Shown one piece after another: positions 6,398-48,919 of a stretch of DNA of 55,754 nt (the first letter of the stretch is position 1; each line of letters begins with the position of its first letter). Made by a program: the position numbers and the translations under genes. Source of the DNA: Bacteroidales bacterium (lineage in GTDB: Bacteria; Bacteroidota; Bacteroidia; Bacteroidales; Bacteroidaceae); assembly GCA_022784065.1 (NCBI GenBank), contig JALFUO010000054.1, positions 1 through 55,754 on the forward strand, read 5' to 3'. Under the pieces are notes generated by a model, which did not search any database, had not been told where the DNA came from, and worked only from the letters and a program-made list of their open reading frames with translations.

Positions 6398-7852
6398 TCA
6401 ACCTACCGAGCCTTCCAGCGAAACGCTCAGCAACTTTTGCGCTTCAACGGCAAACTCCATCGGAAGTTTGTTGATGACTTCCTTTGCATAGCCGCCCACA
6501 ATCAGTCCCACGGCATCTTCGGTGCTGATGCCGCGCTGGTTGCAGTAGAATAACTGATCTTCTGAAATTTTCGACGTTGTGGCTTCGTGCTCCACTATGG
6601 CATTGTTGTTGGCCACGTCGATGTAAGGGAACGTGTGCGCGCCGCATTTGCTGCCGAGCAGCAGCGAGTCGCACGAGGAATAGTTGCGGGCGTCAGTTGC
6701 CTTGCTGCCCACCTTCACCAGTCCGCGGTAAGAGTTTTGGCTGTGCCCTGCCGAGATGCCTTTCGATATGATGGTGGAGCGCGTGTTCTTGCCGAGGTGA
6801 ATCATCTTCGTGCCCGTGTCGGCCTCTTGGTAATGGTTCGTCACGGCCACGCTGTAAAATTCTGCCTGAGAGTTGTCGCCCGAAAGGATGCACGAGGGAT
6901 ATTTCCATGTAATGGCGGAGCCGGTTTCCACCTGCGTCCAAGAGAGTTTCGCACCCTTGCCGCGCAGATGCCCGCGCTTTGTCACGAGGTTGTACACGCC
7001 GCCGCGTCCCTGCTCATCGCCTGGATACCAGTTTTGCACGGTGGAATATTTTACCTCAGCATCTTCCATCACGACAATCTCCACTATGGCGGCGTGCAGC
7101 TGGTTCTCGTCGCGCATCGGCGCGGTGCAGCCTTCGAGATAACTCACGTACGCCCCGTCGTCGCACACGATGAGCGTGCGCTCAAACTGCCCCGTCTCGC
7201 GGGCATTGATGCGGAAATAGGTGGAAAGTTCCATGGGGCAGCGTACGCCCTTGGGGATATACACGAAGGAGCCGTCGGAGAACACGGCGGAGTTGAGCGC
7301 GGCGAAATAATTGTCGCGGTAGGGCACCACCGTACCGAGATACTTGCGCACCAAGTCGGGGTTTTCGCGCACGGCCTCGCTGATAGAACTAAAAATGATG
7401 CCTTTCTCTTGCAGCGTTTCCTTGAAAGTGGTCTTCACCGACACGGAGTCCATCACGGCGTCTACCGCCACGCCCGCCAAAGCCATGCGTTCTTCGAGGG
7501 GAATACCGAGTTTGTCGAACGTTTTCATCAGTTCGGGGTCGATTTCCTTTTCCCCGTCCTTATTCTTTGACTTCTGCGTGGGGTCGGCATAGTAAGAAAT
7601 GGCTTGGTAGTCTATTTCGGGCAGATGCACGTGCCCCCAAGTCGGCTGCTCCAAGGTTTGCCAGTAGCGGAAGGCTTTCAACCGAAAATCGAGCAGCCAT
7701 TCCGGCTCTCCTTTCTTTTGGGAGATGAGCCGGATAACGTCTTCGTTCAGACCTTTGTCAATGATTTCGGTCTGCACGTCGGTGGTAAAACCGTATTCGT
7801 ATTTTTTCTCGGCGGCTTCGCGCACGAGTTTGTTTTTTTCTTCCATAAGCAA
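6398..7852 (-). CDS. sufB: Fe-S cluster assembly protein SufB
   Basis: Full-length SufB sequence ([61 protein letters not shown]). Confidence 0.98.
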
Positions 7853-8386: not shown

Positions 8387-8450
8387 AGGGGAGGAGGATC
8401 GTTTCTATATAATATTATATAGTCTCAATGCGTTGGTTGCATTAAGTGTT

Positions 8451-8673
8451 AAGTGCCTGGAAGGCACTACTGAGCGAAGCGATGGTAACCGGGCACGAAG
8501 TGCTCGGAAAGAGTGGCAAGGGTGATGTGCCTGGAAGGCACTACGCCACAGGACATGCTCTTTAAACATTGCCACAGGCGTACTGCCTTCCAGGCAGAAT
8601 CATTGCAATAGCCTACACCGAGGACTTCGTCCCCGGTTACCATCGCTACGCTCTGTACTGCCTTCCAGGCAGT
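8451..8673. repeat. Nested inverted-repeat element built on AGTGCCTGGAAGGCACT palindromes
   Basis: GTGCCTGGAAGGCACTACTGAGCGAAGCGATGGTAACCGGGCACGAAGTGCTCGG at 8452 is the imperfect reverse complement of CCGAGGACTTCGTCCCCGGTTACCATCGCTACGCTCTGTACTGCCTTCCAGGCAG ending about 8672; an inner pair uses the same palindrome. Confidence 0.85.
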
Positions 8674-8794
8674 TAATTCCTTAATCATATTGCTTATTAT
8701 TCAACCAACGGGTTAGTGGATATATTCGATAAATCAAACCGGCAGGCAAGCAATCGGGCACACCCGCTTGCCTGTCTGCCGAGAGAGATGTTGC

Positions 8795-13902: not shown

Positions 13903-14245
13903 GAACGTTTTATTTGCCCACGAATTTCACGAATTTTCGTGCAAGCGAGTGCAGAGGGCAAGTTTACTTGGACTATGCCGAGCGCAGCCGAAAATGTCAA
14001 GAAATATACACGAATAAAAAAGCGTTGAGATAATGGCGACCTTGTAGGTCGCACGAATTTTCACTAATTCAATATTTTCGGCTGCGCTCGGCAGTAGGGG
14101 CGTTCTGCAGAACGCCCGCCCAAGTTCGGCTCTGCGCTCGCTTGCGCGAAAATTCGTGAGATTAGTGCGACCGACCAGGTCGCTATTCTACCCGTTGAAA
14201 GAGATTAGTGTAAATTCGTGAAATTCGTGGGCAAATAAAACGTTC
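13903..14245. repeat. 343-bp element with 34-bp perfect terminal inverted repeats and internal nested palindromes
   Basis: GAACGTTTTATTTGCCCACGAATTTCACGAATTT at 13903-13936 and its exact reverse complement at 14212-14245; an internal GCGACC-N5-GGTCGC pair is also inverted. Confidence 0.9.
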
Positions 14246-16586: not shown

Positions 16587-16683
16587 GAAAATTTTGTCAA
16601 AACACATTAGCGGGCATTTGCAACGCGTGCCCCTACCCCATTTCACGAGGGTGTGCCATAATTGGCGCACCCTCGTTTGTTTT

Positions 16684-17007
16684 GGGCGGGCTGTAAGCCC
16701 AATTGTTGCCCTTAGCCCGGGGCAACGCCCCGGGGTTAGTATGCCGAGGACTATACATTTGGCATTTTTGCGCATGCAAAAATGCCACGCGCCTAAAGCG
16801 CGTAACCCTAAAACGCGACACGGGGCGTTGCCCCTCATAAAGCAGACTGCTCTTTTCATAATGTCGGCTGCACTCGGTGATTTCAAGCAAGCTTGATTAC
16901 CCTCGTTTGCACGACATTTCAGAGCGTGACACTTTTATCAATGCAACATCGTCCCCCCAGGGCGTTGCCCTGGGCTATGGGCAGCAATTGGGCTTTCAGC
17001 CCGCCCC
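16684..17007. repeat. Giant nested palindrome family Y, copy A
   Basis: Left end GGGCGGGCTGTAAGCCCAATTGTTGCCC is the near reverse complement of the right end GGGCAGCAATTGGGCTTTCAGCCCGCCC; inner hairpins shared with copies B and C in opposite orientation. Confidence 0.9.
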
Positions 17008-17063
17008 TAACCTGCTAACCACACTTATAGCAAGGTTCTTCATGTATTCTATCCAGCCTTCAT

Positions 17064-17231
17064 TTTCACCAAGATATTTTTTATTTCCTCCGAGAAAATT
17101 TTTCCTATCCGCCTTATATTTTTCACTGTCTGCGCAGAAAAAGTTTGTTACAAAGTTTGTAATATGTATTACAAAGTTTCTAACATGTGTTACAAAGTTT
17201 GTAACGCTTGTTACAAACTTTGTAACAAAAA
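17064..17231. repeat. 21-bp-periodic array, copy A, including 4 TTACAAAGTTTGTAA palindromes
   Basis: TTACAAA starts at 17148, 17169, 17190 and 17211 (exact 21-bp steps); degenerate in-phase units upstream at about 17064, 17085, 17106 and 17127. Confidence 0.88.
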
Positions 17232-17389
17232 CTTTCTTATAGGATAATGAAAACTTTCAAGGAGAAAGGAAAAAATAGCTCCTTGAAAGCAAAAAATTGC
17301 TACTTTGAAATTTTCCGTATATGCGCATTTAATTGGAACAAAATTGTATATTTGCATTTCCATAACCAAGACAACCATCATCTAATACC

Positions 17390-22952: not shown

Positions 22953-25331
22953 TTAGTTCTTTTTGCTGCCCGAGGAGAGGCGCTGTATCTCGCCGCTGCC
23001 TGCGCCCTGTCCGCGATAGCGGCTGTGGGAGGCGTTAAATCGCCATTGCAGGGTTACGCCCAGCATGCGGCCTTCGCTGATGGTGGACTGGTTCATTTGC
23101 GTGAGATTGGTATAAATCGTGTTATCCCATTGGTTTTTGTTGAGCAAGTTGTAGCCGCGCACGGTGAGCGTGAGCTGATCCTTGAGCCACGACTTGCGCA
23201 GGCCGAGGCTCAGTTGGAAGTGGTCGCGGCGGGTGAGGCGGGCGTTCTGATAGTTACCGGCTGAGGAGTAGCTCATGTCGAGCATCACGGTGTACTTTTT
23301 CGGCAACTCGAAGCTGTTGCTCCATGAACCGTTGAATATGGGGTTTTTCGACTTCACCGTGCCCAGTCCGTCCATCGACATCTCAAACCACTGCTTCATG
23401 AGGTAGAGCGTCCACGTGGGGTGCCATATTTTCTTGATGACGGGCGATGCCGAAACGGAGGCGCTCAGCGTGGGAAAGGACTTGTTGATGTTGGAAATCT
23501 TTACCGCAGAACTGTTGCCCGGCACACGCTCAGCCCACATGATGACAGCATCTTTCACCTGCTGGAACGTGACGTTTGCTTGCAGGAACTTCCACACCGA
23601 CACCGCCGAGACGCTGTGCGTGAACGAGGGGCGCAGATAGGGATTGCCGCCCTGCATCACGTAGCGGTTGGCATAGGTCACGTTGTTCGAGAGGTCGTTG
23701 TAAGACGGACGCTGGGTGGTGGAACTATACGAAAGCATGAGCTGTGTTTTCCCCACAGGGCCGGCGAGGCTTAGTTTCGGGAAGAAATTGTCGTAGGTGC
23801 GGCACTGTCCGGGCTGCTTCACGTTGTTGGCGAAATAGTCGAACGACACGTGCTCGAAGCGCAGTCCTGCCGAGAAGTTCCACTTCTTGATGTTGCGGGC
23901 GTATTCGGCATAGCCTGCCACGGCCTGCTGGCGCAGTTCCGTGCTGGAGCTTTGCACGCCCCACGCTGCTGTTTCTTCCGTGGCGTTTTTCACGATGTAG
24001 TCGTCCGTGCGGTCAGTGAGGCTCGCCTGCACGCCTACGCCGAACTTGCCTCCGCCAAGCGGTACGCCGTAATGGATTTTGGCTGCGCCCGTTATGCTTT
24101 TGATGGGGTTGTCGGTATCAACCTTGCGGTCGTCGGCAGTTTGGCTCTGCTCGTCGCTCGTTTGCGACTGGTTGGCGCGCTGCATGTAGAAGTCGGCGTC
24201 GATGTTGAGTTCCTGCTTGCCAAACTTGCCGTAGTAGTAGGCATTGAGTTGATGCGTGGGCTCTGCTTCGTGGTTCATCAATATTTCAGAGCGCAGCACG
24301 TCGCTCGCCGCTCCGTCCTCGAACACCTGGCTGTTCAGGCTGCCCGAAGCCTTAAAGGGCAACTGGCGGTCGTAAGCGTAGCGCATGCCGAGCGAGCTTT
24401 CGCCTTTGAGGTCGAGGTTGAAGCCGGCGGTAGCATTCACGCGCTTATAGTCGAAGGAGATGCGCTGCGTGAAGTCCTGTTGCCATGTGTGGTCGCTGAA
24501 AATCGTTTGCACCGTCTGGGAGGTCGATTTCATTTTCCACTGCGTGAAATTTCCCTCAGCGAAGAGTTCCAGCCCTTTATGGCGATAGCGCATATTGAGC
24601 TGTCCCGACTCTTTGGGGTAGAAAGCCTGATAGAAATTGGCGATGGCATCTACTCCGAAGCCGTCGCCGGCTCGTTTCACGGTGCGAATGCGAACCACCG
24701 CGCCGACGCTCGAGTCGTAGCGCGCTCCGGGGTTTTGGATCACCTCTACGCTCTTGATGTCCTCCGAGCGCAGGCGTTCCAGTTCCTTCGGGTCGCGCAT
24801 TTCGCGCCCGTTGATGTAGAAGAGCGGCGTGCCTTTGCCGAGTACCTCGATGTTGTCGTCGCTCGTCTTGTTGAGGCCGGGCACTCGCGAAAGCAAATCT
24901 TTTGCGTTTCCCGACTTAGAGAGCACGGTGTTCTCGACCGTCGTGATGATAGCGCCCGCTTCGAGGCGCGAGATGGGGCGGCGTGCCGATACCACGGCTT
25001 CGCCCAGCAGCGAGTCGGTGCTTTCGAGCAGCAGGCGCGGGCTGTGGAGCAGCGTGTCGGCGGGCAGCGTGAGCGTGCGGTAGCCCAGGGAGGTGAGGCG
25101 CACGAGGCATGGCTTTTGGGGCAGGCTGATGCTGAATGTGCCGTCCTCTTTGGCAGTTACGCCGGTGATGATGGTGGAGTCGGCCTTTGTGAGGAGCACG
25201 ATGTTGGCAAAGGCTATGGGTTGGTCCTTTATGTCGGCCACGGTGCCGCCGCCCGTCTTTTGGGCAAAGGCTGCCGCTGCCGGGAGGAGCAAGAGACAGT
25301 GTGCCGCGAGTTTTTTCAGAAATAAGTTCAT
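22953..25331 (-). CDS. TonB-dependent receptor (outer membrane beta-barrel family)
   Basis: N-terminal carboxypeptidase-regulatory-like domain, plug (NTVLSKSGNAKDLLSRVPGL), long beta-barrel C-terminus. Confidence 0.9.
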   Translation of the reverse strand: MNLFLKKLAAHCLLLLPAAAAFAQKTGGGTVADIKDQPIAFANIVLLTKADSTIITGVTAKEDGTFSISLPQKPCLVRLTSLGYRTLTLPADTLLHSPRLLLESTDSLLGEAVVSARRPISRLEAGAIITTVENTVLSKSGNAKDLLSRVPGLNKTSDDNIEVLGKGTPLFYINGREMRDPKELERLRSEDIKSVEVIQNPGARYDSSVGAVVRIRTVKRAGDGFGVDAIANFYQAFYPKESGQLNMRYRHKGLELFAEGNFTQWKMKSTSQTVQTIFSDHTWQQDFTQRISFDYKRVNATAGFNLDLKGESSLGMRYAYDRQLPFKASGSLNSQVFEDGAASDVLRSEILMNHEAEPTHQLNAYYYGKFGKQELNIDADFYMQRANQSQTSDEQSQTADDRKVDTDNPIKSITGAAKIHYGVPLGGGKFGVGVQASLTDRTDDYIVKNATEETAAWGVQSSSTELRQQAVAGYAEYARNIKKWNFSAGLRFEHVSFDYFANNVKQPGQCRTYDNFFPKLSLAGPVGKTQLMLSYSSTTQRPSYNDLSNNVTYANRYVMQGGNPYLRPSFTHSVSAVSVWKFLQANVTFQQVKDAVIMWAERVPGNSSAVKISNINKSFPTLSASVSASPVIKKIWHPTWTLYLMKQWFEMSMDGLGTVKSKNPIFNGSWSNSFELPKKYTVMLDMSYSSAGNYQNARLTRRDHFQLSLGLRKSWLKDQLTLTVRGYNLLNKNQWDNTIYTNLTQMNQSTISEGRMLGVTLQWRFNASHSRYRGQGAGSGEIQRLSSGSKKN

Positions 25332-25390: not shown

Positions 25391-25762
25391 GACAAAAACA
25401 TCCAAAACCGCTTGCGCCGTTTGAAGCCCGAGGGCACGCCGCCGGTCTTAACGCCGAGCCTGTGAGCCTCGCGGCTCACGCTCGTCCTTAATCCCTGCGG
25501 CTGCGGTCGGTTCCCGCCCGCTTCAAAAGCCGCAAGCAAAAAACAGAAAAAAGTGGACGTCTACTTTTTTGCTGTAATAGTAAAGAATATATGCTTTACT
25601 TTATTCTGTTTTTTGCTTGTCCTGTGTGGGCGGGCGGGAACCGACCGCAGCCTTAGCAGATTAAGTAACAGACAAAAGTCGGCAGACTTTTAGGCTGGGG
25701 CTTAATCGGATAAGGCGAGTCGTTAGGCCCACACAGGGCAAGCGGTTTTGACTGTTTTTGTC
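25391..25762. repeat. Element X copy 1: TIR-bounded pair of inverted multi-stem modules
   Basis: TIRs GACAAAAACATCCAAAACCGCTTGC / GCAAGCGGTTTTGACTGTTTTTGTC; modules at 25410-25537 and 25615-25743 in inverted orientation share GGCTGCGGTCGGTTCCCGCCCGC. Confidence 0.92.
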
Positions 25763-25806: not shown

Positions 25807-26169
25807 CTATTCCGCCCCGCATTGGCGCATTGCTTCAGCTACGTCTGCTACTTTGACGCGCAAAAGCTGCATTTGCTTCACGAGTTCTGGAATTTTTTTC
25901 TGCAAAAGTTCGTCGCGGCGTTCTTCGAGGATGTGCTGCGCCGCCCCTTCGCTCACAAAATAGCCCATGCCGCGCTTCATCAGCAGCACGCCGCGCGAGG
26001 AGAGCAGGTCGTAGGCTTTCACCGTAGTGTTCACGTTTACCTCGAGCAGCACGGAATATTCCCTTACGCTTGGCACGCGCTCGCCTTCTGCGTAGTTGCC
26101 GGCCAGTATCTCGTCGGAAAGCCGCTCGGCTATCTGTACAAATATCGGTATGTTTTCTGAAAATATCAT
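25807..26169 (-). CDS. GntR family transcriptional regulator (YtrA-like)
   Basis: GERVPSVREYSVLLEVNVNTTVKAYDLLSSRGVLLMKRGMGYFV. Confidence 0.93.
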   Translation of the reverse strand: MIFSENIPIFVQIAERLSDEILAGNYAEGERVPSVREYSVLLEVNVNTTVKAYDLLSSRGVLLMKRGMGYFVSEGAAQHILEERRDELLQKKIPELVKQMQLLRVKVADVAEAMRQCGAE

Positions 26170-37197: not shown

Positions 37198-37521
37198 GTC
37201 TGCTTCCATTTACGGCCGTGTCTGCTTCCATTTCCCGCCGTGCGCATAGCGATTATCCCCGAGAAGTTTTTCCCTGTCTGCGCAGATAATTGTTAGGAGC
37301 TTGCTGATATTTTTTCCTTTCCTATAAGATGGTTTTTATTACAAAGTTTGTAACGCGCGTTACAAACTTTGTAACATGTATTAGAAACTTTGTAATATGC
37401 GTTACAAACTTTGTAATAAACTTTTTCTGCGCAGAGAGTGAAAACTTTCAAGGGGAAAGGAAAAAATGTCTGCGCAGATAGTGAAAACTTTCAAGGAGAA
37501 AGGAAAAAATGTCTGCGCAGA
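37198..37521. repeat. 21-bp-periodic array, copy B, with 4 TTACAAASTTTGTAA palindromes, then 43-bp direct repeats containing TCTGCGCAGA
   Basis: TTA(C/G)AAA starts at 37339, 37360, 37381 and 37402 (exact 21-bp steps); TCTGCGCAGA at 37277, 37426, 37469 and 37512 (43-bp spacing for the last three). Confidence 0.88.
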
Positions 37522-37600: not shown

Positions 37601-37707
37601 GCCGCCAAAGGTGCATTTTATATAGACCAATTGGTTGAATTGTGCGTTAAGTGCCTATTGCAAAAGGCGGTACATGCGCCGTGTTCACTGTGCTGGTTGC
37701 ACAAGTG

Positions 37708-38106
37708 GGGCGGGCTGAAATGCCGTGCAAACGAGGGCAATAGAGCTTGCTCGTATTGCCGAGTGCAGCCGACATTATGCAAAGCCCAAATGTTGCACAT
37801 AGCCCCGGGCAACGCCCGGGGGAGCGATGTTGCATTGATTAAAGTGTTGCGCTCTGTAAGAGCAGCCTGCATTATGAGGGGCAACGCCCCGTGTGGCGTT
37901 AAGGGCATTAATGGGTTACGCGCTTTCGGCGCGTGGCATTTTTGTGCCGTCGGCGCAAAAATGCCGATTGTATCAATCGCTGCCTTCGTTTCCCCAGGGC
38001 GTTGCCCTGGGCTATTGGCAACAACTGGGCTTTTCATAATGTCGGCTGCACTCGGCAATTTGAGCAAGCTCAATTGCCCTCGTTTGCACGACATTTCAGC
38101 CCGCCT
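37708..38106. repeat. Giant nested palindrome family Y, copy B (399 bp, P modules in both arms)
   Basis: GGGCGGGCTGAAATGCCGTGCAAACGAGGGCAAT... mirrors ...ATTGCCCTCGTTTGCACGACATTTCAGCCCGCC; about 115-bp arms. Confidence 0.93.
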
Positions 38107-38198
38107 CAATTAAAGTCCCTGCGGCACACCCTAGCCGTGCAGTCTGATTATCTGCGCCCCTACTCGTGGGACCTTATTTTTTTGAACTTTCACACATT

Positions 38199-41456: not shown

Positions 41457-41843
41457 AATTATTGGCAAAATTATAATGCAACCCAATTTATTCCACTATT
41501 GACAAAAGAAAAATTATGCAGGCAGATGGACGCAACTAACTTATATAATGGTTGGGGCGGGCTTGGTGTGGGTTAGGGCGTACATGATTTTGACAAGTTC
41601 GCGTGCTCTTTCCACAGTAATGTATGATTGCGTTAGGCCGCGCCTTGGGTAAGACCGAAATATGTTTCCTCGCGCGCGCGTTACGCATTATTTTCCCCGA
41701 AAAACCATTCAACCCAGCACTAATTCGCATAACCTCCTGTAATCAAATGGGTTGCAAGTGTATGGTTTGCACCTCAAACCCGTCACTTATGACGGGTTTT
41801 TCTTGTACATGCGCCGTGTTCACTGTGCTGGCTGCACAAGTGT

Positions 41844-42174
41844 GGCGGGCTGAAAGCCCAATTGCTGCACTCAGCCCAGGGCAGCGCCCTGGGTCAACGA
41901 TGTTGCATTGATTAAAGTGTCGCGCTCTGTAAGAGCAACCTGCTTTATGAGGGGCAACGCCCCGTGTGGCGTTAAGGGCGTAATGGGTTACGCGCTTTCG
42001 GCGCGTGGCATTTTTGCGCCGATGCAAAAATGCCGAATGTATCAATCGCGGCCTACGTTCCCCCAGGGCGCTGCCCTGGGCTATGGGCAACATTTGGGCT
42101 TTGCATAATGTCGGCTGCACTCGGCAATACGAGCAAGCTCAATTGCCCTCGTTTGCACGGCATTTCAGCCCGCC
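41844..42174. repeat. Giant nested palindrome family Y, copy C
   Basis: GGCGGGCTGAAAGCCCAATTGCTGC...CCCAGGGCAGCGCCCTGGG arms; P module only in the right-arm loop; 35-bp left flank TACATGCGCCGTGTTCACTGTGCTGG(C/T)TGCACAAGTG shared with copy B. Confidence 0.93.
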
Positions 42175-42284
42175 CCAATCATTTACCGGGCGTTTGTGCA
42201 AATTTGTTCGTATACATGCTCCTTTTCTTGACATTTTCTTTGACATTTTCGGATGCGCTCGGCATAGCCCGTTCCAAGCATCAC

Positions 42285-42367
42285 TATCCGCAAGATAATT
42301 TTCATTATCCGCAAGATATTTTTCATTATCCGCAAGATAATTTTCATTATCCGCAAGATAATTTTTC
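42285..42367. repeat. 4 x 21-bp direct repeats TATCCGCAAGATAATTTTCAT
   Basis: Unit starts at 42285, 42306, 42327 and 42348. Confidence 0.95.
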
Positions 42368-42389
42368 CGCTCATATAAGGTAGTTTTTG

Positions 42390-42470
42390 TTACAAACTTT
42401 GTAACATATATTACAAACTTGCTAACATGCGTTACAAAGTTTGTAACATGTATTAGAAACTTTGTAACAA
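42390..42470. repeat. 21-bp-periodic array, copy C: 4 TTACAAASTTTGTAA palindromes
   Basis: Unit starts at 42390, 42411, 42432 and 42453; in phase (42 bp) with the preceding 21-bp direct repeats. Confidence 0.92.
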
Positions 42471-42728
42471 ACTTTCTCTGCGCAGATGGTGAAAAATAGT
42501 CAGGAGCAAATAAAAAATATCTCCGTGAAAGGAAATTATTTCACGGAGATAATGCGAACGGTGTGCTATGAAAATTGAACGAAAATGGAGGCGTTTTCAA
42601 AACGCCCATACTCGGATGAGCAGGGGCGTTAAGTGCCTTCCAGGCACTTGACACTAATGCATAAGTTATTGTTCGGTAGTGTCAAGTGCCTGGTTTACTT
42701 GTTTACTGGACCATTATTATCATCACTA

Positions 42729-47067: not shown

Positions 47068-47455
47068 GATAAAAACCTTAAAAAACAGCTTGCGTGTCAA
47101 AGCCCTCTCGGGTTCGCCGCAGGTATTAACGCCGAGCATTAAAGCCTTGCGGCTTATGCTCGTCCTTAATCCCTTCGGCTACGGCCGTTTAGCAACGGCC
47201 GCTTTGACCCACAAGGTAAAAACCAAGAAAAACCCGTGAGACCTTAATTGCTGCCCAAGAGTAATAATCATTGGTTTTCATTGCAATGTGTTTTTATTGG
47301 TTTTTCCCTTGTTCTGTGTGGGGCGGTCGGTTTCCGACCGCAGCCTTATCGGATAAAGCACGAGACAAAAGCCGACAGGCTTTCAGGCTCGGGGTTTATG
47401 CGATAAGGCGAGCCGACAGGCCACACAGAACAAGCGGTTTTTACTGGTTTTTATC
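47068..47455. repeat. Element X copy 2: TIR-bounded pair of inverted multi-stem modules
   Basis: Modules at 47088-47216 and 47308-47434; closing stem CTTGTTCTGTGTGG/CCACACAGAACAAG perfect; TIRs GATAAAAACC...CAGCTTG / CAAGCGG...GGTTTTTATC. Confidence 0.92.
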
Positions 47456-48919
47456 AGACTCTTTTACTATCGTATTATCGGCAGGCGTTTGCGGCGTTTC
47501 CAGTCCCATTTCTTTGGCTTTATTCAAGACGAACTGCCAGGCGGCATCGCGCTCATTTGGCACAACGCCGTCTAGGATGGCATCTTTGAGCGCGGTTTTC
47601 AACACGCCGATTTCGCGACAGGGCGGCAGGTGGAAGACCTGCATGATGTCGTCGCCGGTGACGGGCGGCTGGAAGTTGCGGATACGGTCTTTTTCCTCGA
47701 TATCAACGAGTTTCTGGCGCACGATTTTGAAGTTTTGCAGGAAATTCTTCTTGCGCTGCTCGTTCTTGCTCGTGATATCGGCCTCGCAAAGGAGCATCAG
47801 GTCGTCGATGTCGTCGCCCGCCTCGAAGAGCAGGCGGCGCACCGCGCTGTCGGTCACCTCGTCGTCGGCAATGGCAATGGGGCGCATGTGCAGCCCCACG
47901 AGTTTCTTGACGTACTTCATGCGTTCGTCGAGCGGCAGTTTCAGCCGCTTGAACAGCGCGGGAATCATCTTTTCACCCAAATAGTTATGATTGTGGAACG
48001 TCCAGCCCACGGCAGCGTCCCACTGCTTGCTGCGCGGCTTGCCGATGTCGTGCAAAAGCGCCGCCCAGCGCAGATAAAGGTTGTCGCTCTTGGCCGCCAC
48101 GTTGTCGAGCACTTCGAGCGTGTGGTAGAAGTTGTTCTTATGCGCCCGCCCGTTGCGCGTTTCTACGCAGTCGAGGGCTGCCAGTTCGGGCAGGATTACG
48201 GAAAGCAGTCCGCTGCGATGCAGTTCGACGAAGCCGTAAGAGGGCGCGGCGGTCTCCATTATCTTATTAAGTTCCACGATGATACGCTCCGCGCTGACGA
48301 TGCGCAGCCGCTCGGCATTGCGCCCGAGTGCGTCGAAGGTTTCTTCTTCGATTACGAAGCGCAACTGCGCGGCGAAGCGGACGCAGCGCATCATGCGCAG
48401 GGGGTCGTCGCTGAAGGTGATATCGGGGTCGAGCGGCGTGCGGATAATGCCGTCTTCAAGGTCGAGCACTCCCTCAAAGGGGTCTACCAGTTCGCCGAGC
48501 CGGGCGGCATTGAGGCAGACGGCCATGGCGTTGATTGTAAAGTCGCGGCGGTTTTGGTCGTCCTCCAACGTGCCGTCTTCAACGATTGGCTTGCGGGAAT
48601 CGTGGGAATAACTTTCGCGGCGCGCCCCCACAAATTCCACTTCGTGGCTGTGCCATTTCACCTGCGCCGTGCCGAAATTGGCAAACACGCTGACCGCCGC
48701 CTTGCCTTTGAGCCGCGCCGCGAATGCCTTTGCCATTGCAATGCCGCTGCCCACGACAACAACGTCGATGTCGTTGGTGGGGCGCTGGAGGAAAAGGTCA
48801 CGCACGTAGCCGCCCACGAGGTAGCACTCCATTCCCAGGTCGTCGGCGGTGGCCGTAAGGGCGTGGAACAGAGGGCTGTCGATCTTCTGCCTTATTTCTT
48901 CTGTGGTAAGGATTTTCAT
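47441..48919 (-). CDS. cca: CCA-adding tRNA nucleotidyltransferase with HD domain
   Basis: YLVGGYVRDLFLQRPTNDIDVVVVGSG, RRDFTINAMAV, DPLRMMRCVRFAAQL, LLHDIGK. Confidence 0.95.
   Translation of the reverse strand: MKILTTEEIRQKIDSPLFHALTATADDLGMECYLVGGYVRDLFLQRPTNDIDVVVVGSGIAMAKAFAARLKGKAAVSVFANFGTAQVKWHSHEVEFVGARRESYSHDSRKPIVEDGTLEDDQNRRDFTINAMAVCLNAARLGELVDPFEGVLDLEDGIIRTPLDPDITFSDDPLRMMRCVRFAAQLRFVIEEETFDALGRNAERLRIVSAERIIVELNKIMETAAPSYGFVELHRSGLLSVILPELAALDCVETRNGRAHKNNFYHTLEVLDNVAAKSDNLYLRWAALLHDIGKPRSKQWDAAVGWTFHNHNYLGEKMIPALFKRLKLPLDERMKYVKKLVGLHMRPIAIADDEVTDSAVRRLLFEAGDDIDDLMLLCEADITSKNEQRKKNFLQNFKIVRQKLVDIEEKDRIRNFQPPVTGDDIMQVFHLPPCREIGVLKTALKDAILDGVVPNERDAAWQFVLNKAKEMGLETPQTPADNTIVKESDKNQ

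Follow-up and report, generated by a model that had tools for sequence, protein, structure and literature searches.

Anatomy of element X

The analysed DNA (the window; 55,754 nucleotides) carries a non-coding palindrome between two minus-strand genes, an outer-membrane beta-barrel gene (22953-25331) and a GntR-family gene (25807-26169). We call this palindrome element X, copy 1. It comprises the following features:

25391..25762, no strand: element X copy 1, subfamily A, non-coding palindrome of ~370 bp
25391..25414, plus strand: left terminal inverted repeat (TIR), GACAAAAACATCCAAAACCGCTTG
25411..25536, plus strand: module alpha (closing stem, TTAA-anchored inner stem, apical hairpin, GGTCGG side hairpin); covariation in 27 copies
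25533..25548, plus strand: inner inverted repeat, left arm, CAAGCAAAAAACAGAA
25604..25619, plus strand: inner inverted repeat, right arm, TTCTGTTTTTTGCTTG
25616..25742, minus strand: module beta, inverted; covariation in 24 copies
25739..25762, minus strand: right TIR, GACAAAAACAGTCAAAACCGCTTG (as read on the minus strand)

A preliminary description of this DNA, made from its letters, had named TIRs, two inverted homologous modules, a TTAA-anchored inner stem and a 4-nt apical loop, all of which were found in copy 1. The perfect 16-bp inner stem that it placed between the modules is formed by 25533-25548 and 25604-25619, and its statement that there is no ORF agrees with an interior devoid of ORFs of at least 80 aa. 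The modules are a homologous inverted pair, as described; the account of them had to be refined in that alpha and beta are distinct, each being separately conserved, and that their borders, set by aligning copy 1 to the other copies, are 25411-25536 and 25616-25742 (minus strand). The interval between the arms of the inner repeat corresponds to the position of a GxxExxY ORF in a coding copy described below. Folded as single-stranded DNA, copy 1 reaches -118.7 kcal/mol (z = -13.8; z = -16.2 for the opposite strand), and none of 100 shuffles equalled its fold stability.

Copies of X in the genome

The source genome is a draft of 2.23 Mb in 103 contigs, estimated to be 85% complete. Comparison of copy 1 with this genome by BLAST gave 91 matches, and pairing of their ends yielded at least 27 complete, non-coding copies of ~336-397 bp. 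These form two subfamilies: A, with 14 copies and the TIR GACAAAAAC....AAAACCGCTTG, and B, with 13 copies and the TIR GATAAAAACC.... One member of subfamily B lies in the window, overlapping at its right TIR with the stop-codon end of a minus-strand gene (47441-48919):

47068..47455, no strand: element X copy 2, subfamily B, GATAAAAACC termini

All copies have the layout TIR, module alpha, inner stem and spacer, inverted module beta, TIR. In every complete copy a single alpha is paired with a single inverted beta, and the unit as a whole may point either way with respect to the genes. With at most 2 mismatches allowed, the genome has 58 occurrences of the TIR pattern and 1 of the reversed control; the additional TIR ends come from truncated or rebuilt copies or from contig ends. 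Thus, as is characteristic of MITEs, X is short, non-coding, bounded by TIRs and present in many copies (27 complete ones).

Since the flanks outside the TIRs are similar in many copies, the outer-end coordinates of X are approximate. A GTTGGTTGAAT motif is found outside many X ends, and ~30 bp to the left of the TIR are also alike in two coding elements from other loci (L199 and L202, see below); judging from these alignments, the element may extend past the TIR core. Inspection by eye of the flanks of aligned copies revealed no convincing target-site duplication, the conserved outer motif blurring the ends.

Five X copies in this genome (C5:23079, C60:5481, C9:16961, C44:7861 and C1:20; loci L037, L039, L040, L042 and L053) have the interior swapped for GTAGGGGCG...CGCCCCTAC REP-like double units. 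At C44:9771 (L142) there is a 56-bp mini-derivative, in which a piece of the alpha-end TIR is flanked by inverted GTTGGTTGAAT motifs.

Placement of the copies and distribution among relatives

According to simple ORF calling, both neighbours could be assigned for 24 copies, and these neighbours are co-directional in 21 cases, convergent in 3 and divergent in none. The distance is mostly no more than ~65 bp to the stop codon upstream and ~100 bp to the start downstream, and X shows no clear orientation preference relative to transcription. A search for X DNA in 100 relatives returned, outside its own genome, only two short matches (27-33 bp) of marginal E-value, and no X copies were detected in the 20 listed genomes of the same genus.

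The intergenic position, palindromic shape and G+C-rich stems of X, together with its regular spacing from stop codons, would suit a binding site of a nucleoid protein or gyrase, or a terminator, that spreads by recombination or gene conversion and is kept for host benefit. This is the least probable of the readings weighed here, and a very improbable one: the copies are TIR-bounded units that include a coding version, and the lack of detected copies in the 20 same-genus genomes favours recent lineage-specific spread over a conserved host function.

Conservation of the stems

Modules alpha and beta share a common plan of a long closing stem, an inner stem of the TTAA/CTTAAT type, an apical hairpin and a GGTCGG side hairpin. 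In the alignment of 27 alpha modules, 11 of 45 pairs changed on both sides and 97.2% of the cells are paired; the corresponding values for 24 beta modules are 11 of 40 and 97.4%. The observed covariation was reached by none of 500 shuffles for either module, and the paired fraction fell to 32-47% in slid controls. Each control has its own weakness: related sequences can exceed shuffles without any structure, and slid controls are biased toward a structure taken from the same alignment. We argue that the consensus structure is real because both controls agree and because many cells are fully compensated.

The preliminary description had proposed covariation and Rfam searches as checks. The copies do covary, and no Rfam family matches X, only two tRNAs in the window reaching gathering scores. 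Constraint on an RNA made from one strand is expected to leave G.U intermediates more often than A.C on that strand. In X, the half-way states are divided 15:15 between G.T and A.C, two pairs that are normally G.T being left out of the count, and full compensation is seen in 89 cells; there is thus no preference for either strand. Because this strand was used to derive the fold, any resulting bias would favour G.U. This symmetry argument is indirect, and it is the best discriminator at hand; it points to stems kept as DNA structure, or to mutation and repair templated by a DNA hairpin, rather than to a one-strand RNA.

Structured RNA was dropped as the main reading after this count. A cis-regulatory or intergenic processing element in operons would fit the strong covarying stems and the prevalence of copies between co-directional genes, with none between divergent ones. 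We nevertheless regard it as very unlikely, given the 15:15 ratio, the occurrence of X in both orientations relative to genes, the lack of an Rfam match and modules that differ wholly between species while the termini are retained (see below).

A coding copy of X contains a GxxExxY gene

A coding copy of X was found in the same genome at C80:3041-4004 (locus L041; 964 bp). Its X termini enclose a module of the beta type and, after an ORF, one of the alpha type; the ORF lies between the inner repeats in place of the short spacer of X. Its identity to non-coding X is up to 88% over 318 aligned columns, with an alignment score of 326 compared with 17 for shuffled sequence. This is the sole X-type TIR pair seen with coding content, that is, one coding copy in a draft that is 85% complete.

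The C80 ORF belongs to PF13366 PDDEXK_3 (85 bits, cut-off 22; 6.5e-24) and to TIGR04256 GxxExxY (83.9 bits, cut-off 35; 1.1e-23). The putative active-site residues D87, E97 and K99 are intact and are followed by Q111-x3-Y115; all five residues are invariant in ten diverse members. A sequence search of solved structures with the GxxExxY protein gave no significant match. The AlphaFold2 model (eleven clade members) has a pLDDT of 94.6 and a pTM of 0.88, and its nearest PDB structures according to Foldseek are SSO0001, which we take to be a Cas4 protein, and lambda-type exonucleases, with a weak best E-value of 1.1e-3. The protein is therefore a predicted PD-(D/E)XK nuclease with a Cas4/lambda-exonuclease-like fold, the structural match being of modest significance. 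Thus, the relative of X that has the same ends encodes GxxExxY and no known transposase, and to our knowledge no member of the GxxExxY family is known as a transposase.

The closest relative of the C80 protein (61%; L197) is encoded on a contig titled Lachnospiraceae, reflecting either MAG contamination or horizontal transfer.

GxxExxY genes within inverted repeats

GxxExxY proteins are present in 19 of the 41 Bacteroidales genomes searched. We collected 38 GxxExxY genes from the genome of X, Bacteroidales relatives and named MAGs, and scored a gene as enclosed if an inverted repeat with a score of at least 40 spanned it within 500 bp. Such repeats surround 23 of the 38 genes but none of 147 control positions from these loci and none of 78 from the window. 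The counts are not fully independent because some loci are closely related (L203-L205 and L207; L100/L101; L107/L108). The remaining 15 genes fall below the threshold. Because the first controls were not all isolated genes, the control was repeated on small ORFs with gaps on both sides, and 1 of 25 was positive. This one is a PF05635 (23S rRNA IVP) gene, a family of presumably four-helix-bundle proteins, and 8 of 21 PF05635 genes (loci L147-L176 and L200:7859-8257) lie inside inverted repeats.

The genome of X contains two GxxExxY genes, C80 and C91. The second is flanked by copies of a different palindrome, TTGCCCACGAAT..., which is itself dispersed over the genome (~16 places) and has a member in the window:

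13903-14245: member of the TTGCCCACGAAT palindrome family, which encloses C91

Termini follow the clade of the protein

Relatives of the C80 protein were identified with alignment A2, alignment A1 being too diverse for scanning. The C80 clade has a support of 100/99 (members placed in the tree), and 16 of its loci, C80 included, were compared. An inverted pair of AAAAC-N3-6-AAAAC termini, resembling the TIR of X, surrounds the gene in 11 of the 16 loci and is missing from 5; the same pair was found at 0 of 331 other positions in these loci and around none of the 24 GxxExxY genes from other clades. Between the termini and the gene, each lineage has modules of its own, which differ wholly between species while the termini persist.

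At L212, a coding copy stands beside a non-coding copy of the X layout (6624-6992), and further non-coding copies are present in that genome. At L199, a non-coding deletion form lies ~2 kb upstream of the coding element. The elements of L199 and L202 are homologous (76% over 841 bp), and the DNA around them has no other similarity. The search for an empty site through the neighbour gene of L199 returned matches of only 43-50%, too distant to align; for X itself, no empty site, target duplication, polymorphic insertion or movement was found. The MITE-like nature suggested for X in the preliminary description gains from copies dispersed in dozens, from the TIRs, from the coexistence of coding and non-coding forms, and from a two-species homology that ends near the TIRs.

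Proposed mechanism

We propose that X is a non-autonomous, MITE-like palindrome whose full-length form carries the GxxExxY gene and that it is mobilised in trans by the GxxExxY nuclease. That X is a mobile DNA element is very probable; that the nuclease serves it in trans is fairly probable; and the proposal as a whole has slightly better than even chances. The full-length form would consist of TIR, hairpin module, GxxExxY gene, hairpin module and TIR, and X would be the form with the gene swapped for a short spacer. The DNA recognised by the protein might be the AAAAC-N3-6-AAAAC termini, the extruded hairpins or both, and the protein might cut at these sites; such cutting would mobilise copies with and without the gene into intergenic gaps. 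The ends could be joined by host repair that copies the element after the cut, in a homing-like manner, or a hairpin or cruciform intermediate could be released.

The GxxExxY gene could also be a passenger. The main rival is that X is a MITE of an ordinary transposase (DDE or Y1) missing from the assembly, with GxxExxY as cargo or as a gene that settles in palindromes. IS5-type TIRs are known from those MITEs of Porphyromonas gingivalis that have an identified relative (PMC4596501), a precedent for this reading; the assembly is incomplete, and the only Y1_Tnp gene of the genome (C18:31331, L239) does lie in a palindrome family. However, that family is not X, no X-type TIR pair encloses a transposase, and apart from the GxxExxY copy no coding TIR pair was seen. 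An unseen transposase must also explain why the terminus sequence follows the GxxExxY clade across species, which is unexpected for cargo. On balance, we consider this rival unlikely.

Comparison with known systems

X is laid out like MITEs and REP/RAYT systems but differs from them in the enzyme. Like X, the P. gingivalis elements MITE239, PgRS/MITE464 and BrickBuilt are short, multi-copy, TIR-bounded, non-coding and intergenic; the TIRs of X are unrelated to the IS5-type TIRs of those with an identified relative, and the product of its single coding relative is a PD-(D/E)XK protein, not a transposase. REPtrons and TIRtrons combine dispersed palindromic intergenic repeats with a gene flanked by inverted repeat copies (PMC3733652). 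REP/REPIN-RAYT and TIRtron-TIRYT systems thus resemble X in having palindromic intergenic repeats around a flanked gene, which is a Y1 (HUH) tyrosine transposase in these systems and a GxxExxY nuclease in X. In addition, X has no GTAG/CGTC tag, and its unit is ~370 bp compared with 20-40 bp for REP. Identity of X with REP/RAYT was rejected, since the X ends lack GTAG and the palindromes flanking the Y1 gene belong to another family.

The IVS of 23S rRNA genes, with their S23/IVP protein, likewise place a small ORF within an inverted-repeat stem, as coding X does; they differ in lying in rRNA genes and in having a four-helix-bundle protein, whereas X is intergenic and carries GxxExxY. Such an IVS stem enclosing a small obscure ORF is a suspected selfish element (PMC4990558). 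With the Cas4/lambda-exonuclease-like PD-(D/E)XK nucleases, the GxxExxY protein shares the predicted fold and the D, ExK and QxxxY residues; unlike in those systems, element X has no CRISPR or phage recombination context.

In the open-access literature searched, we found no paper tying GxxExxY or PDDEXK_3 to repeats, and a review of prokaryotic MITEs makes no mention of a nuclease or of "Bacteroid". We give even chances to the broader proposal that GxxExxY PD-(D/E)XK proteins, perhaps along with PF05635 IVP proteins, mobilise a widespread, undescribed class of Bacteroidales palindromic elements, in which each clade has its own termini and a non-coding intergenic swarm, forming a nuclease-based counterpart of RAYT/REP. 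If true, this would assign a job to the common GxxExxY family, so far named only after its motif, and the link between GxxExxY and palindromes would explain both the proteins and part of the unannotated repeats in these genomes. It would also mean that a Cas4/lambda-exonuclease-like nuclease is able to drive the spread of DNA palindromes. For any single genome, the proposal predicts that the flanks of a GxxExxY gene often name a dispersed repeat family.

Other palindrome families in the window

The genome itself also contains such an arrangement around a recognised transposase: the Y1_Tnp gene at C18:31331 lies within a palindrome family of its own, by analogy with TIRtrons (PMC3733652). The window contains members of this and of another family:

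16678-17012: TIRtron-like palindrome family flanking the Y1_Tnp gene
37670-38110: same family
41805-42180: same family
8432-8709: CCTGGAAGGCACTAC palindrome family with the GTTGGTTGAAT outer motif

The GTTGGTTGAAT motif occurs outside CACGAATTT copies and REP-like units as well as outside many X copies, and may be a shared terminus or a common target. Repeats of the TTACAAAGTTTGTAA type, with a period of ~21 bp, are located at 17059-17297, 37254-37511 and 42280-42540 of the window.
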